NCBI GenBank assembly: GCA_902601545.1
Contig: CACKNR010000007.1
Coordinates: forward strand, 1 to 50,991
Length of the DNA: 50,991 nt
Origin: an uncultured Pelagibacteraceae bacterium
Lineage (GTDB): Bacteria; Pseudomonadota; Alphaproteobacteria; Pelagibacterales; Pelagibacteraceae
Direction: 5' to 3'
Shown: positions 14,001-50,245 of the stretch, in pieces
How positions within the stretch are numbered: position 1 is the first letter of the stretch
Layout of the letters: each line of letters opens with the position of its first letter
Notes under the pieces: generated by a model
What the model saw: the letters and a program-made list of their open reading frames with translations, nothing else
Told to the model about the DNA's origin: nothing
Database searches by the model: none
Position numbers and translations under genes: made by a program

Positions 14001-14024
14001 TTTTATAACGTCCAACACCTATTG

Positions 14025-14118
14025 CACTAGTGGGCGAACCTTCGCTGACTAGTGTCGACACTCTTGTTGTCAAGAGCACCGCAAAAACATGTGTATTTGC
14101 GGAAAGTTTGTGGAAACT
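14025..14118. other. Cluster of four small hairpins between ffh and dapF; possible structured RNA
   Basis: Four inverted repeats follow one another with almost no spacing. Hairpin 1 is 14025-14054 (CACTAG/CTAGTG outer stem, GCGA/TCGC inner stem). Hairpin 2 is 14061-14076 (CTCTTG, loop TTGT, CAAGAG). Hairpin 3 is 14079-14102 (CCGCAAA/TTTGCGG). Hairpin 4 is 14105-14118 (AGTTT/AAACT). A perfect 12-base palindrome, AGTGTCGACACT at 14051-14062, overlaps hairpins 1 and 2 and could form a competing structure. The G+C content here is higher than in most of the window. It could be a small RNA or the 5' leader of ffh or dapF; the strand cannot be decided. I do not recognise a known RNA family. Confidence 0.45.
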
Positions 14119-38237: not shown

Positions 38238-39422
38238 ATGAAAAAAATTGTTTTAGCCTACTCAGGCGGTTTGGATACATCTATAATTTTGAGATGGTTA
38301 CAAGAAAATTATAAAGCTGAAGTAATTGCTTACACCTCTGATATTGGACAAGTTTTAGATAAAAAAAAAATTATTAAAAATGCTAAGAGACTAGGTGTAA
38401 AAAAGATAATTATTGAAAATTTGAAAAATATCTTTGTTAAAGATTATGTTTTCCCAATGATAAGAGCTCATGCAGTTTATGAAGGAGTATATTTATTAGG
38501 CACATCTATTGCCAGGCCGTTAATTGCAAAAAGACAAGTTGAAATTGCAAAAAAATTTAGAGCTTATGCGGTTTCGCATGGTGCAACTGGAAAAGGCAAC
38601 GATCAAGTAAGATTCGAACTGGGTTACTCATATTTTGGTAAAAATAAGATTAAAACTATAGCGCCATGGAGAGAATGGAAATTACAATCAAGAGCAGATT
38701 TAATTAAATACGCTAAAAAGAATAATATACCAATACCTAAAGATAAAAAGGGAGCACCGCCATTTTCTGTAGATGACAATATTTTTCATACATCAACTGA
38801 AGGCAAGATTTTAGAGGACCCAAAAAACTCTGCTCCTGAATTTATTTATCAGAGAACAGTTTCACCACAGAAAGCTCCTAATAGACCTACAAAAGTAAAA
38901 ATTACTTTTAAAAACAGTGATCCAATTGCAGTAAATGGAAAAAAATTAAGTCCAGAAAAGCTTTTAAGTAAATTGAATATTCTGGCTGGAAAAAATGGAA
39001 TAGGGAGAGTTGATCTGGTTGAAAATAGATTTATTGGAATTAAATCTAGAGGTGTTTACGAAACTCCAGGTGGTACTGTGTTATATACTGCACATAGAGC
39101 TATAGAGTCTGTAACTCTTGATAAAGAGACCGCTCATAAAAAAGAGAGAATAATGCCAGAATATGCTGAGCTAGTATATAACGGCTATTGGTTTTCAAAA
39201 AGAAGACTTAAATTACAAAAAATAATTGATAAAAAAAGAAACAAAGTATCTGGTGATATTGTTTTAAGTTTATGCAAAGGTAACATAACTATTTTATCAA
39301 GAAGGACAAAAAATAAAGCTTATTCAATGAAAAAAGTTTCTTTTGAGGAGAATAAATCCTTTAATAAAAGAAAAGTTGAAAATTTCATAAAATTTCACTC
39401 TAAACAGTTAAATAAAGCCTAA
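38238..39422 (+). CDS. argG: Argininosuccinate synthase
   Basis: The 394-residue enzyme joins citrulline and aspartate with ATP in arginine synthesis. The ATP pyrophosphatase P-loop AYSGGLDTSIIL lies at residues 7-18. The citrulline/aspartate-binding block HGATGKGNDQVRFELGY is near residue 115. GVYETPGGTVLYTAHRA near residue 275 is another family signature. Codons 42-45 contain an A10 run (38361-38370) that remains in frame. It abuts the IalB-like gene; argH is not nearby. Confidence 0.97.
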   Translation: MKKIVLAYSGGLDTSIILRWLQENYKAEVIAYTSDIGQVLDKKKIIKNAKRLGVKKIIIENLKNIFVKDYVFPMIRAHAVYEGVYLLGTSIARPLIAKRQVEIAKKFRAYAVSHGATGKGNDQVRFELGYSYFGKNKIKTIAPWREWKLQSRADLIKYAKKNNIPIPKDKKGAPPFSVDDNIFHTSTEGKILEDPKNSAPEFIYQRTVSPQKAPNRPTKVKITFKNSDPIAVNGKKLSPEKLLSKLNILAGKNGIGRVDLVENRFIGIKSRGVYETPGGTVLYTAHRAIESVTLDKETAHKKERIMPEYAELVYNGYWFSKRRLKLQKIIDKKRNKVSGDIVLSLCKGNITILSRRTKNKAYSMKKVSFEENKSFNKRKVENFIKFHSKQLNKA

Positions 39423-43706: not shown

Positions 43707-44783
43707 ATGACAAAAAAGATTACATTTTTAGGAATTGAAACAAGCTGCGATGAGACTGCAGCATCTGTTATAAGGGAAAATGATAAGGGCACTGCAGACA
43801 TTTTATCAAATATCGTCTCAAGTCAGATTTCAGAGCATAAAAAATTTGGAGGTGTAGTACCGGAATTAGCTGCTAGAGCGCATTTAGAAAATATTGACTA
43901 CATAATTAAAGCTGCCTTAAACGAAAGTAAAGTTTCCTTAAAAGAAATAGATGGAATTGCGGCTACTGCAGGTCCAGGTTTAATTGTATGCTTAACAGTT
44001 GGATTGAACATAGGTAAATCAATTGCTGCATTTTTAAATAAACCGTTTGTTGCAGTTAATCATTTAGAAGGTCATGCTTTAAGTCCCGGATTAGAAAATT
44101 ATATTAAATTCCCTTATTTACTTTTATTAATTTCTGGAGGTCACTCCCAATTTTTAATTGTAAAAGATGTAAATCAATATGAACAGCTTGGAACGACTAT
44201 TGATGATGCTTTAGGTGAGGCTTTTGATAAAACTGCAAAAATGCTTGACCTAGGTTACCCAGGTGGGCCAAGTGTTGAAAAAGCCTCAAAAATGGGAGAT
44301 AAAAATTTTTTTAAACTTCCTGAACCAATAATAAATAAAGCAGGATGTAATTTATCTTTTGCCGGACTAAAAACTGCGGTTTTGAGAGAATCGAAAAAAA
44401 TAAATGGAAACGAAAAATTAAAATTTAGTCTTGCAGCATCTTTTCAAAATACTATTAACAAAATTCTTTATAAAAAAACAAAAATTGCAATTGAAATGTT
44501 TAAAAAAAAAATTAATACATCAAATGTAAATTTAGTTGTAGCTGGAGGTGTTGCAGCCAATATTTCAATACGAGATAATTTAAAAAAGCTCTCAAAAGAA
44601 ATAGGATTTACAACAATATACCCCAATTTAGAATTTTGTGGTGATAATGCTGCTATGATTGCCTGGGCTGGTATTCAAAGATTCAAAAAAAATTTATTAA
44701 ATAAAATTGATGTAGAAGCTAAATCTAGGTGGCCTTTGGACGAAAATGCTCCCTACATGAAAGGGCCAGGTTTAAAGTTATAA
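43707..44783 (+). CDS. tsaD: tRNA N6-threonylcarbamoyladenosine synthase subunit TsaD
   Basis: The 358-residue ASKHA-fold protein transfers the threonylcarbamoyl group to A37 of ANN-decoding tRNAs. It has the opening GIETSCDETAAS, the metal-binding His119 and His123 in NHLEGHALSP, ISGGHSQFL near residue 142, SFAGLKTAVL near residue 222 and the late CGDNAAMIAWAG. The length is typical of bacterial TsaD. An in-frame A10 run lies at 44502-44511. Its stop codon shares a base with the ATG of the EVE gene (TAATG). Confidence 0.97.
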   Translation: MTKKITFLGIETSCDETAASVIRENDKGTADILSNIVSSQISEHKKFGGVVPELAARAHLENIDYIIKAALNESKVSLKEIDGIAATAGPGLIVCLTVGLNIGKSIAAFLNKPFVAVNHLEGHALSPGLENYIKFPYLLLLISGGHSQFLIVKDVNQYEQLGTTIDDALGEAFDKTAKMLDLGYPGGPSVEKASKMGDKNFFKLPEPIINKAGCNLSFAGLKTAVLRESKKINGNEKLKFSLAASFQNTINKILYKKTKIAIEMFKKKINTSNVNLVVAGGVAANISIRDNLKKLSKEIGFTTIYPNLEFCGDNAAMIAWAGIQRFKKNLLNKIDVEAKSRWPLDENAPYMKGPGLKL

Positions 44784-45196
44784 TGAAATATTGGCTACTT
44801 AAGTCTGAGCCCGATGTTTGGTCGATTGAGCAACAAATAAAAGCTGGCATTAAAGGTGCTGCCTGGGATGGAGTTAGAAATTATCAAGCTGCAAACAATT
44901 TAAGAAGAATGAAAAAAGGTGATTTATGTTTTTTCTACCATTCAAACATTGGAAAAGAAATTGTAGGTATAGTTAAAGTAATTAAATCAGCATTTATCGA
45001 CAAAACTGATAAGAAAAATAGGTTTGTGGCTGTTCAAGTTAGGTTCGTGAGTAAATTCAAAAGGGCTATTTCTTTGGAAAAGATTAAAAAAAACAAGAAA
45101 ATTTCTCATTTAGCGTTAATAAAACAGAGCAGGTTGTCAGTGATGCCAATAGATTATAAAAGCTGGAAAATTATTTGTAACATGGGTAAAGTATAA
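44783..45196 (+). CDS. EVE-domain (PUA-like) protein
   Basis: I use the ATG at 44783 (MKYWLLKSEPDVWSI, 137 residues), which overlaps the tsaD stop as TAATG; an upstream GTG at 44729 lies inside tsaD. The opening YWLLKSEPDVWSIEQQ, the GVRNYQAANNLRRMKKGDLCFFYHS stretch, seen as two blocks, and VGIVKVIKSAF are signature features of EVE domains. EVE proteins are PUA-like and bind modified bases in DNA or RNA, though the role of the alphaproteobacterial stand-alone form is not known. Coupling to tsaD, a tRNA-modification gene, hints at an RNA role. Confidence 0.92.
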   Translation: MKYWLLKSEPDVWSIEQQIKAGIKGAAWDGVRNYQAANNLRRMKKGDLCFFYHSNIGKEIVGIVKVIKSAFIDKTDKKNRFVAVQVRFVSKFKRAISLEKIKKNKKISHLALIKQSRLSVMPIDYKSWKIICNMGKV

Positions 45197-45213
45197 AAAA
45201 ATTAGGGGTATTT

Positions 45214-45421
45214 GTGGCTAAAAAGAAAAAAAAGAAAAAATCAAAAGTTAGAAAGTCTAGAAAAGTAAAAAAGTCTAGAAAAGTTAACAGACCCAGAAAA
45301 AAAAAACAAGAAATCCAGAAAAAAGAAAAAATCTAGAAAAAAAGCTAGAAAAGCAAGACGGATTATTTTTAAAGCTCCTACATACTCAAAAGATAGTGAC
45401 GGTAATTCGGTTATAAGAGTG
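45214..45421 (+). other. Lys/Arg-rich coding leader of acs, frame broken at an A10 tract
   Basis: A GTG at 45214 opens a frame rich in Lys, Arg, Ser and Val (repeating KSRK-like units) that ends at TAG 45334-45336. The acs frame, read upstream of its GTG at 45419, is open back to 45269 and carries the same kind of sequence (NKKSRKKKK, then [10 protein letters not shown]) without any ATG, GTG or TTG. The two frames join smoothly at the A10 tract 45297-45306 if one A is removed. This reads as a single basic N-terminal extension of Acs, interrupted by a one-base shift. The cause may be a sequencing or assembly error, a recent mutation, or slippage that restores the frame. The leader falls in the largest intergenic gap of the window (222 bp). 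Confidence 0.7.
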
Positions 45422-47338
45422 TCAGATAGTTGGGCAAATCATGCCTATGTAAACGATTCTAAATATAAAAAGAAATATAAGATGTCCATAAAAGAAAACG
45501 ATAAATTTTGGGCTAAAGAGGGAAAAAGAATTACTTGGATGAAAAAGTATACGAAAATTAAAGACGTAAAATATAGTAAAGATGAGGTAAAAATAAAATG
45601 GTATTATGATGGAACTTTAAATGCTTCGGCGAATTGTATAGATAGACATTTAAAGAAAAATCCAAGCAAAACAGCAATCATTTGGGTCGGCGATGATCCC
45701 GCTGATACAAAAAAAATTTCTTACAAAGAATTGCACCAAAACGTATGTAAAGCTGCAAATGGTTTAAAAAGTTTAGGTATACAAAAAGGAGATAGAGTTA
45801 CAATTTATCTGACTATGATCCCCGAATTAGCTTACATTATGCTGGCATGTGCGAGAATTGGTGCTGTTCATTCAATAATTTTTGGTGGTTTTTCGCCCGA
45901 CTCAATAGCCACAAGGATAACTGATTGCGAGTCCGAATATTTAATAACTGCAGATGAAGGAGTAAGAGGTGGAAAAATAATTCCATTAAAAAAGATTGCC
46001 GACGAAGCATTGGACCAATGTCCGGGAGTAAAAAAATGCGTAGTTGTTGAAAGAACTGGAAATCAAGTTGATTGGGATAATGAAAGAGATGTTTCTTATA
46101 AAGAACTTATTTCATCAGCTCCCTCAAAATGTGAACCTGAGGAAATGAACGCAGAAGACCCTCTCTTTATTTTATATACTTCTGGTTCCACTGGGAAACC
46201 TAAAGGTGTTCTACATACTACGGGTGGCTACATGGTTTACGCTTCGATGACCCATCAGTATATTTTTGACTATAAAGCTAATGATATTTATTGGTGCACA
46301 GCTGACATAGGTTGGGTAACAGGTCATAGTTATATTATTTATGGACCTCTATCTAATGGTGCAACAACTATTATGTTTGAAGGAGTTCCAAATTATCCAG
46401 ATAGCTCTAGATGGTGGCAAATAGTAGATAAATATAAAGTAAATATTTTTTATACTGCTCCAACAGCAATAAGAGCTTTGATGCGAGAGGGAGATAAACC
46501 AGTAAAAAAAACAAGCAGAAAGACACTAAAATTGTTAGGCACAGTTGGAGAGCCTATTAATCCGGAGGCTTGGATGTGGTATTACAAAACAGTCGGAGAC
46601 TCTAGATGTCCAATTGTTGATACTTGGTGGCAAACAGAAACTGGAGGAATTTTAATTGCACCACAACCTGGAGCAATAGATTTAAAGCCCGGCTCAGCAA
46701 CTAAACCTTTTTACGGTATCAAACCAGTATTAGTTGATAAAGATGGTAAAACTATTAAAGGAGAAGGTAAAGGAAGACTTTGTATGGCTGCTTCATGGCC
46801 AGGTCAAATGCGAACAGTTTATGGAGATCATCAAAGATTTATAGATACCTATTTTTCTCAATTTGATGGAAAATATTTTACAGGTGATGGATGTCGAAGG
46901 GATAAAGACGGTTACTACTGGATCACGGGAAGAGTAGATGATGTTATTATAGTATCTGGTCATAACCTTGGTACTGCTGAAATAGAAAGCGCCTTTGTAG
47001 CTCATCCTAAAGTTGCTGAAGCAGCTGTTGTGGGCTTCCCACATAGTATAAAAGGAAATGGTTTATATTGTTACGTAACATTAAATGCAGGGGAAAATCC
47101 GACAGGTGACTTAGAAAGAGATTTAAAGTTATGGGTGAGAAAACAAATCGGGCCAATAGCTACACCTGATGTTATTCAGTTCGCTCCTGGTTTACCGAAA
47201 ACTAGATCTGGAAAAATAATGAGAAGAATCCTTAGAAAAATTGCAGCCAATGAGCCAAATAATTTAGGAGACACTACAACATTAGCTGATCCTAGCGTCG
47301 TAACTTCTTTAGTGGAAAATAGACAAAACAAAGGTTAG
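45419..47338 (+). CDS. acs: Acetyl-CoA synthetase
   Basis: From the first available start (GTG 45419) the protein has 639 residues, close to the about 650 of E. coli Acs. It activates acetate via acetyl-AMP. The P-loop-like motif [18 protein letters not shown] lies near residue 248, with [24 protein letters not shown] near residue 400 and [12 protein letters not shown] further on. The regulatory lysine is Lys599 in TRSGKIMRR, the acetylation site in enteric Acs. The conserved N-terminal region aligns slightly upstream of this GTG, so translation may begin earlier in the Lys/Arg-rich leader. Its last four bases overlap the convergent hypothetical gene. Confidence 0.95.
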
Positions 47339-47976
47339 TTAAAAATTAAATCTTTAGTTCTTTTCTTGAACTCTTCTTTAACTAATCCCCATTTTAAAGA
47401 AATAGAGTTCAGTACTATCTTTTTATCCAAAATTTTCAATTCATCGGCAATTGGAGACCAATAATACAATGCCTCACCGCTCTCTTTAAACGGATCATTT
47501 AGATAGTAATTATTGAAATTTACACCTTCAATTCTTTTTAGAAAATTAGATTTTCCATTTTTATAAATTTCGTCACTTATACCGTTCTCTCTTTCTTTTC
47601 CTAATATTTTAATGAACATTTCTTTACAATTATTTTCCTTTAGGTTTTTTTCTGCAATTAAATATGAAAAAACATAAAAAGAACAGTCTGCAAGAGCAAC
47701 AGTGTAAATATTCCACTTAGCAATGTTAATTGATTTAAGAAACCTCTCGTCTTCCATCATTGCGATATATTTTACTCCAATTCTAGTTTTAAGATATCCG
47801 TATAAAGTCGTCTGAGTTACGTGAGCTGATCTTTCTTGAATAAAATTTTCTAAGTCATTTTTTGATTTTATGCTTTTAAAAAGACCAGAAATTTTCCAAA
47901 TTGGAATGACATACTCCCACAGGTCAATTAGAGTAGTTCTAAGAGTGTTTCGCAATTTATCTAGATTCAATTTCAC
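47335..47976 (-). CDS. Conserved hypothetical protein
   Basis: The 213-residue protein starts at a GTG (47976; [15 protein letters not shown]). I recall similar alphaproteobacterial proteins of unknown function, but can assign no activity. It has no signal peptide and no clear membrane helix; the segment [18 protein letters not shown] near residue 90 is moderately hydrophobic. Recognisable blocks are [34 protein letters not shown] and [15 protein letters not shown]. It lies between acs and the symporter pair on the opposite strand, converging on acs with a 4-base overlap. Confidence 0.7.
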
Positions 47977-48131: not shown

Positions 48132-48389
48132 ATGTCAAATAAAGACGCATATTGGAATAAGACCAAAAACCATATGATAGTAACATTGGTTCTTTGGGCT
48201 TTCTTCTCATTAGTGATCTTCATGTTTGGTTCAGAACTGAACACGATGTCTTTTCTTGGCTATCCATTAGCATATTACATGACTGCGCAAGGTTCACTTC
48301 TTGCCTTTGTGATAATTTTGTTTTGGACTGCAAATAAACAAGAAAAAATCGACGAAGAACATGGTTACTCAGAAAGAGAGGATGACTAA
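48132..48389 (+). CDS. DUF4212 small membrane subunit of a sodium:solute symporter
   Basis: The 85-residue protein has two helices (about residues 15-34 and 46-65) and an acidic C-terminus. The opening AYWNKTKNHMIVTLVLWAFF and the later GYPLAYYMTAQGSLLAFVIIL resemble DUF4212 proteins, which are found immediately upstream of SSS-family symporters, like the small partner of acetate-type permeases. Its stop overlaps the symporter start by one base. A strong ribosome-binding sequence (TAGGGGGA) precedes the ATG, unusual in this AT-rich DNA and consistent with high expression. Confidence 0.88.
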   Translation: MSNKDAYWNKTKNHMIVTLVLWAFFSLVIFMFGSELNTMSFLGYPLAYYMTAQGSLLAFVIILFWTANKQEKIDEEHGYSEREDD

Positions 48390-50245
48390 TGTTTAAAGGA
48401 GATTTTATACAAAACCTTCCTAAAATATATGGTACCTACACTGGTGGCTTTATAGTGTTCATCATTTTGATGGCATTAGCAGAGCAAGCAGGTGTGTCAG
48501 CTAAAAACATCGGAGTGATGTTTGTAGCTTTCACTGTATTGATTTATGCCTTAATTGGTTATTTATCAAGAACCGTTCAAGTAGATGCTTACTATGTTGC
48601 AGGAAGACAAGTGCCAACCGTGTTTAACGGGATGGCAACAGCAGCTGACTGGATGTCAGGTGCATCATTCGTAGCTTTAGCGGGTGGAGTTTACTTTGGT
48701 GGCTATACTTATATGGCCTTCTTAGTAGGTTGGACAGGTGGATACGTACTTGTTGCAACTCTAATGGCTCCGTACCTAAGAAAGTTTGGATGTTACACAG
48801 TTCCTGATTTTATCGGAACACGATACGGTGGTAATCTTGTAAGAGCTTGCTCTGTATTCGTGCTTTTCATAGCATCATTTACTTACGTAACAGCTCAAAT
48901 TAATGCTACGGGAACAATTGCTTCTAGAGCTCTTGGAATTCCGTTCGAGGCAGGAGTATGGGTAGGATTAATAAGTATCCTTATCTGTTCAATGCTTGGT
49001 GGAATGAGAGCCGTAACTTGGACACAGGTTGCTCAGTACATTGTATTAATCATCGCATACTTAATACCAGTATTCTGGATTAGTTCTAACGTAGGTGGAG
49101 GAATCTTCCCTCACTTAATGTTAGGTGATGAAGTTGCAAGACTTGGTGAACTTGAACAACAATTTGGACTAGTTAAAAACAGCGCCGCAGATATGAAAGC
49201 AGCTGGAGTACCAGGAGGATTGAAATACATCTCTGGAACTCACTCTGGAGTACCTGAAGGTGGAATGGCTGTATGGAAATACTTATCGTTAGCGATTTGT
49301 ATGATGGTGGGAACTGCATCGTTACCTCATATCTTAATGAGATACTTTACAACTCCTACAGTTAGAGCAGCAAGAAAATCAGTAGCTTGGTCGCTATTCT
49401 TCATTTTCTTACTTTACTCTTCAGCGCCTATGTTAGCGACATTGTCTAAATTAGCATTGATGGATCCAAATCTACCAACTGGAATTATCGGAAAATCTAT
49501 TTCTGAAGTTCAGTCGATAGAGTGGGTACAAAGATGGTCTGAAGTTAAACAAGTATTTATCGCAGACTTTAATGGTGACGGAATACTTCAGTTGAACGAA
49601 TGGTTCATGAGAGGTGACGTTGTAGTATTAGCTACTCCAGAAGTAGCGGGTCTACCGTTCGTAATCTCAGGGCTAGTGTTTGCTGGTGGTATGGCTGCTG
49701 CCATGTCAACTGCCGATGGATTAGTTCTTGCGATCTCAAATGCGTTATCACACGACATTTACTACAAGATCATAAATCCAAAAGCGGAAACTGCTAAAAG
49801 ACTATTAGTTGCTCGTGTACTTCTAGTTGTCATCGGAGCTGCGGGTGCTTACATAGCCTCTTTCAGGCTAACAAGTATCTTAGGTTCAGTTGCTTGGGCA
49901 TTCGACTTTGCGATGTCAGGCTTATTCTTCCCACTTGTACTTGGTGTATGGTGGAAGAGAGCTACTAGAGAAGGTGCAATCGCCGGTATCATAGCAGGAA
50001 TTGTGTCAGGAACAGTTTACTTAACGTGGGTGTTCCCTAAATTCTCAGTTCCAATATGGGGCGGTGTAAATACTCCATTCTTAGGTATTGACCACTTAAG
50101 ATTTGGTTTAATTGGAGCACCAATTTGTTTAGTTGTAATGGTGGTAGTCAGTTTAATGACTAAAGAGCCAAGCCCAGCTACACAAAAATTAGTAGACGAT
50201 ACAAGAATACCAACAGGTAAGGCTATTCTTGGTAAGCAACACTAA
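48389..50245 (+). CDS. Sodium:solute symporter (SSS family, VC_2705/ActP-like)
   Basis: The 618-residue protein has about 13-14 membrane helices in the SSS pattern, including YYVAGRQVPTVFNGMATAAD near residue 70, the GGMRAVTWTQVAQ segment near residue 205 and GGMAAAMSTADGLVLAISNA near residue 435. Loops carry two insertions: a polar one near residues 245-300, and one near 375-410 with an EF-hand-like sequence (393-404). With DUF4212 and acs nearby, acetate or another short monocarboxylate is the likeliest substrate. Codons look more C-ending than in neighbours, suggesting high expression. A strong terminator follows. Confidence 0.93.
   Translation: MFKGDFIQNLPKIYGTYTGGFIVFIILMALAEQAGVSAKNIGVMFVAFTVLIYALIGYLSRTVQVDAYYVAGRQVPTVFNGMATAADWMSGASFVALAGGVYFGGYTYMAFLVGWTGGYVLVATLMAPYLRKFGCYTVPDFIGTRYGGNLVRACSVFVLFIASFTYVTAQINATGTIASRALGIPFEAGVWVGLISILICSMLGGMRAVTWTQVAQYIVLIIAYLIPVFWISSNVGGGIFPHLMLGDEVARLGELEQQFGLVKNSAADMKAAGVPGGLKYISGTHSGVPEGGMAVWKYLSLAICMMVGTASLPHILMRYFTTPTVRAARKSVAWSLFFIFLLYSSAPMLATLSKLALMDPNLPTGIIGKSISEVQSIEWVQRWSEVKQVFIADFNGDGILQLNEWFMRGDVVVLATPEVAGLPFVISGLVFAGGMAAAMSTADGLVLAISNALSHDIYYKIINPKAETAKRLLVARVLLVVIGAAGAYIASFRLTSILGSVAWAFDFAMSGLFFPLVLGVWWKRATREGAIAGIIAGIVSGTVYLTWVFPKFSVPIWGGVNTPFLGIDHLRFGLIGAPICLVVMVVVSLMTKEPSPATQKLVDDTRIPTGKAILGKQH

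Follow-up and report, generated by a model that had tools for sequence, protein, structure and literature searches.

The closest described relatives of the gene discussed here are the AMP-forming acetate-CoA ligases (Acs), for which the solved structures such as 2p2f and 1pg3 are presumably those of the Salmonella enzyme. Low-complexity Lys/Arg-rich sequence of the kind found in front of this gene is known from Lys-rich histone-H1-like bacterial proteins and from the Lys-rich extensions of eukaryotic aminoacyl-tRNA synthetases, and is often nucleic-acid binding. Frameshifts in endosymbiont genes are reportedly ancient and kept by selection, to go by the title of a study by Wernegreen et al. 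According to a review (PMC5009743), bacterial RNA polymerase slips efficiently where 9 A or T stand in a row, and 12-50% of the transcripts of endosymbiont genes are corrected; lacZ reporters with A7-A11 runs reportedly showed insertion to be at least twice as efficient as deletion (PMC6260861). A basic patch is also described for the mammalian acetyl-CoA synthetase ACSS2, whose ABC element is reported to be a putative nuclear localisation signal and a destabilising element (PMC8405932).

The window considered here, the whole 50,991-nt stretch of DNA analysed, is contig 7 of an 844-kb genome assembly (29 contigs; completeness 71.6%). Its host belongs to SAR11 (Pelagibacteraceae), whose members are free-living, and is not one of the insect endosymbionts with which an earlier note on this DNA drew a parallel. 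The genes around acs are, in order, tsaD, EVE, acs, one for a 213-aa protein on the opposite strand, DUF4212, and an SSS symporter (Table 1); the names tsaD and SSS symporter are putative. In the set of 126 tailed loci defined below, the EVE gene is upstream of acs in 125 and DUF4212 is near it in 115; EVE is also found upstream in tail-less relatives. The 213-aa protein (47335-47976, minus strand) is near acs in 120 of the 126, and has no Pfam match at E 0.01 and no NCBIfam match. The only match in the window to pass an Rfam gathering threshold is RF01793 (ffh sRNA; 14017-14069, minus strand, 42.8 bits), and a search of a phage collection gave no match.

Table 1. Features of the acs locus, in window coordinates.
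Feature	Position	Strand	Basis
tsaD-like gene	43707..44783	+	ORF; homologue adjoins acs in many relatives
EVE-domain gene, immediate upstream neighbour	44783..45196	+	Pfam PF01878, E 7.5e-45
Shine-Dalgarno-like AGGGG before the true acs start	45204..45208	+	Sequence; similar ahead of relatives' starts
Basic tail, first half: GTG, 40 codons, TAG in the shifted frame	45214..45336	+	Aligned with intact tails
A10 run, one base more than the relatives' frame	45297..45306	+	Sequence, alignments
acs frame before the core: second half of tail plus linker	45269..45418	+	Useful part from the A10 run on
Acs core (ACAS_N, AMP-binding, AMP-binding_C), including stop codon	45419..47338	+	ORF, Pfam
Downstream genes for DUF4212 and an SSS-type symporter, possibly serving acetate uptake	48132..50245	+	DUF4212 by Pfam

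The core is that of an ordinary AMP-forming acetate-CoA ligase (AcsA). Its three Pfam domains occur in the order given in Table 1, in the window as in four intact relatives. The window core was scanned with Pfam only; L002, an intact relative, scores 1011.3 bits against TIGR02188 (curated equivalog cut-off 724.95), and its residues 78-708 align to residues 14-646 of 2p2f (E 1.7e-286). K671 of L002 is invariant in 38 aligned relatives, and the window translation includes the C-terminal PKTRSGK motif, which we take to carry the catalytic lysine.

Upstream of this core are two overlapping frames with the same kind of basic sequence, as a direct reading confirms. One begins at GTG 45214 and encodes 40 residues, rich in Lys and Arg, before its TAG (45334-45336); the other is the acs frame, open from 45269 for 689 codons. 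They are put out of step by one base at a run of exactly ten As. The earlier note had proposed that one A fewer would fuse them, and this is what a relative contains: L043 encodes, at this site, an 11-residue sequence equal to the window translation minus one A. Between GTG 45214 and the core, the sole non-triplet indel separating the window from 11 close relatives, and likewise from the 11 nearest loci by DNA, is the one extra base in this run; as sequenced, the window acs is interrupted by it.

There is indeed no ATG, GTG or TTG in the acs frame ahead of GTG 45419, as had been noted, but 45419 does not stand as the start. The anatomy is settled by the relatives, in which acs begins with GTG or ATG, with ribosome-binding-like sequence ahead; on this basis the true start in the window is GTG 45214, preceded by AGGGG, which makes the basic tail the N-terminus of Acs itself. 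An internal start at GTG 45419 was considered and rejected: it has no clear ribosome-binding sequence before it, and relatives do not conserve it as a start codon, the 52 tailed relatives compared having GTT (36), GTC (11), GTG (4), or GTA (1) at this position.

The relatives were drawn from 154 parsed Acs loci (L001-L030 and L041-L164); L031-L040, which repeat loci already included, and L165, which is partial, were left out before any counts were made. No N-terminus was obtained from eight of the 154, namely the window itself, L100, and six loci located at contig ends, and the remaining 146 gave 139 distinct rows when loci identical in the tail and the first 200 core residues were treated as duplicates. 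Among these loci, which are the best-scoring ones, nearest first (the best 30 per search, the best 80 in one), so that the tail set leans to near relatives, a K/R-rich tail is present in 126 of the 139 distinct rows and absent from 13. The 126 intact tails are 19-105 aa long (median 59), with 40-62% K+R and a net charge of +7 to +61; they start with ATG (66), GTG (57), or TTG (3), some contain tandem repeats, and they are found in genera g1, g5, g6, and g9 of the Pelagibacteraceae. The tail-less rows are L129 and 12 rows from two further genera of the family (g7 and g8) and a sister family (f2), most of these 12 beginning with short ends such as MSENEKFE or MSDKLFK.

Some individual loci are unusual. 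In L100 (AG-898-J15), the tail is broken just before the core by a stop codon (KTKK*WISKA), with no shift of frame. L129 has upstream DNA without the EVE gene and a short piece in the tail's place, and is either an amplification chimera or a rearrangement. L155 comes from a genome (G013) labelled as the window's genus, yet its Acs, with 72% identity to the window's and a 105-aa repeat tail, groups with g5; this could reflect either gene transfer or mis-binning. In other Alphaproteobacteria, several of them AT-rich, no K-rich tail was found in the 17 readable of 20 Acs N-termini (L229, L231, and L243, seemingly read in the wrong frame, were excluded as unreadable), and AT-richness alone was rejected on this ground as the cause of the tail; in the class-wide search, open-frame length was uninformative in high-GC genomes.

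The tail is under coding constraint, hypervariable in sequence and length and constant in charge. Every one of the 126 distinct intact tails is open in the acs frame, and none in either of the other two; the first of these counts holds by construction, the tails having been read off the acs frame, and the weight lies with the other frames and with shuffled sequences. Base-shuffled tails contain a mean of 615 stops per set, where the real tails have none, and 8.0% D+E, against 4.0% in the real frame. Comparing 11 close relatives pairwise (55 pairs) gives the tail a dN/dS of 0.23, against 0.012 in the core. When the tail is divided, its basic part has 0.31 and its linker 0.09. The replacements counted in the basic part are 208 K-R exchanges, 94 between K/R and neutral residues, 20 to or from D/E, and 289 between neutral residues. 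The earlier note's view of the basic leader as a genuine extension at the N-terminus of Acs is supported, and it is close to certain that the tail is real.

In the partial genome samples, the basic tail is peculiar to Acs. We scanned 400 kb of G006, the same length of G062, and about 313 kb of G037, which has no tail, for ORFs of 70 aa or longer that contain a 30-residue stretch with 15 or more K+R. The scan returned one of 410 ORFs in G006, which is acs; one of 398 in G062, a 360-aa ORF other than acs, acs itself being outside the sample; and none of 317 in G037. Used as a query, the tail matches acs alone, in 12 of 41 genomes, the other tails being too diverged for that query. A structure model has a mean pLDDT of 56.6, with low confidence for residues 1-54; in so poor a model, this points only weakly to the tail being, as is probable, disordered.

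The extra A occurs in the window alone among the loci examined, and the break is very probably private, an error or a mutation, with no conserved device behind it; we infer either that a base was recently inserted in this genome alone or that the extra A is an error of sequencing, amplification, or assembly. The earlier note considered a slippage-expressed Acs possible. As an evolved feature, the A10 run would be a switch at which slippage of RNA polymerase or the ribosome yields a controlled share of full-length Acs. The run is long enough for this, 9 A/T being sufficient for efficient slippage according to PMC5009743, but such a switch is highly unlikely here: an out-of-frame run is found in no relative examined, whether among the 126 intact tails or at the 11 nearest loci by DNA, all 11 of which are in frame at the A10 site. 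(These 11 overlap with the 11 close relatives compared with the window for indels: L248, L256, and L257 correspond to L043, L002, and L003, and the tails of L251 and L254 are identical to those of L070 and L065.) The window frame would be restored by losing one base or gaining two, and the required deletion is the less efficient direction in the lacZ data (PMC6260861). Runs of ten or more As are also depleted in the tails. In 52 tails close to the window's, there are 4 such runs against 54.3 expected from synonymous codon use (300 of 300 simulations higher) and 42 of A9 or longer against 69.3, while in 57 tails of genus g6 there are 44 of A10 or more against 82.3 and 109 of A9 or more against 106.9; the two groups (g1 and g6) were chosen by start codon and locus number and are approximate genera, and the rows are related, so that simulation counts are not to be taken as probabilities. 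The depletion of A10-or-longer runs is milder genome-wide (44 and 41, against 65.0 and 61.5 expected), and in the tails it is consistent with slippage being selected against within an important frame.

Of the two forms of private break, a sequence error, with an ordinary intact acs in the cell and the extra A arising in amplification, sequencing, or assembly, has about an even chance of being correct. A single-base homopolymer change private to one 71.6% complete assembly is in keeping with it, and in L014, L047, and L080 the contig stops 32-35 bases short of the core, indicating that the tail can be hard to assemble. Against it, two other A10 runs in the window (38361-38370 and 44502-44511) are inside intact ORFs, and 39 of the 126 intact tails contain runs of at least 10 (including two of the 11 nearest loci, L250 and L255), with runs of 10 to 14 assembled in frame; long runs are therefore not simply misread, and A10 might be the true allele. 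A real one-base insertion, by which Acs has been lost or lowered in this cell, is a tentative reading which we would put somewhat below even. A runs are mutation-prone, and the tail of another relative, L100, also contains a stop; the core, however, is intact, with up to 99% Acs identity to its nearest relatives (uncultured Pelagibacteraceae, e.g., AG-920-C13, AG-915-N04, AG-913-I14), so that any loss of Acs would be recent. In this one cell, low-level rescue by RNA polymerase slippage is possible.

A charge that stays constant while sequence and length vary freely would meet the requirements of a non-specific electrostatic contact, and suggests a tether. Acs begins with its own Lys/Arg-rich tail at GTG 45214, probably disordered, and the tail would act by charge alone to hold a soluble enzyme on a cellular polyanion, which is the least sure step of the proposal. 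Candidate polyanions would be RNA, the ribosome, the nucleoid, or anionic membrane near the symporter encoded downstream; tethering might cause acetate to be activated at one place, or make activity or stability dependent on binding. As an explanation of the locus, this anatomy and this mechanism taken jointly could be right or wrong with about equal probability, and are the best we have; the electrostatic contact itself, with nucleic acid or anionic membrane, is put forward tentatively, as short of an even chance. A putative nucleic-acid-binding role is possible. Neither the 40-aa frame nor the tail part of four intact relatives has a Pfam match. Two findings count against a tether: the enzyme can do without a tail, as the tail-less Acs of g7, g8, and f2 demonstrate, and the dN/dS of the tail is far above that of the core.

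An alternative is that the tail has no binding role at all, and is an expanding low-complexity end tolerated in AT-rich genomes. Its hypervariable length, the tandem repeats in some tails, the relaxed dN/dS, and its absence from sister genera all fit this explanation, which we nevertheless regard as unlikely, given that charge and frame are kept in 126 of 126 tails, that such tails are rare in other proteins of the sampled genomes, and that none is found in the 17 readable alphaproteobacterial N-termini, several from AT-rich genomes. Another possibility is an effect on translation, through speed or stalling, exerted by the A-rich 5′ end of the coding sequence or by the nascent poly-basic chain, with the finished tail incidental. 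A-rich starts and poly-lysine do affect ribosomes; K-R exchanges and codon changes, however, alter the RNA while charge is kept, and tails of up to 105 aa go beyond what an initiation effect needs, making this quite improbable. Less probable again is a histone-like tail that would bind nucleic acid or membrane and be discharged by acetylation from the enzyme's own products, acetyl-AMP or acetyl-CoA, such that acetate supply would move or switch Acs. Elsewhere, Acs is reset by a sirtuin; the sirtuin family PF02146 (SIR2/CobB-type deacetylase) was found in none of 16 SAR11 genomes, tailed and tail-less, and in 10 of 14 control genomes, so that its absence does not sort with the tail. The catalytic lysine of Acs is acetylated in other bacteria; SAR11 Acs keeps this lysine although PF02146 was not found in any of the 16 genomes.

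The origin of the tail can be followed to some extent on a tree of 107 Acs cores, on which the tailed rows fall into two separate groups, a large one of g1, g6, and g9 and another of g5 together with G013; the tail-less g7 and g8 lie near the second. The tree implies two changes in the tail without L129 and the long-branch L224, and four with both; a single tailed clade is not rejected (p-AU 0.40), and one or two origins are both compatible with the data. Since the EVE gene precedes acs with and without a tail, the tail grew in place, and fusion of a separate basic gene was rejected for the same reason. Judging by the tandem repeats that some of them contain, the tails may have lengthened through repeat slippage.

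In the literature searched, which included subscription papers to a limited extent and in which long lists were inspected at the top only, no description of the SAR11 Acs tail was found. The tail is a variant on a known enzyme, and the frame break is ordinary. SAR11 bacteria count among the most abundant cells of the ocean, and their genomes are very lean; that such genomes keep a long charged tail on one central enzyme calls for a reason. If the tail does tether Acs, it would be an example of metabolism being positioned by charge in very small cells. For annotation, a start called at the core would remove a real N-terminus.

Compared to the described AMP-forming enzymes (TIGR02188; 2p2f and 1pg3), the SAR11 protein shares the catalytic core, but a SAR11 relative has about 65 extra basic residues before it, outside the best-matching Pfam and NCBIfam models. 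Like the slippage-rescued genes of insect endosymbionts, the window acs lies in an AT-rich genome and has a long A run where its frame breaks. A run of about 9 or more is present at the junction, as in such genes; conservation in relatives is lacking, the window break being private to one genome among those examined, unlike the endosymbiont frameshifts. With the histone-H1-like proteins and the synthetase extensions, the tail has in common its low-complexity Lys/Arg-rich sequence, but it is on a metabolic enzyme, and has no Pfam family match. The ABC element of ACSS2 (PMC8405932) is similar in being a basic patch in an acetyl-CoA synthetase; it is in the carboxy-terminal part of that protein, while the SAR11 tail is N-terminal, long, and hypervariable.
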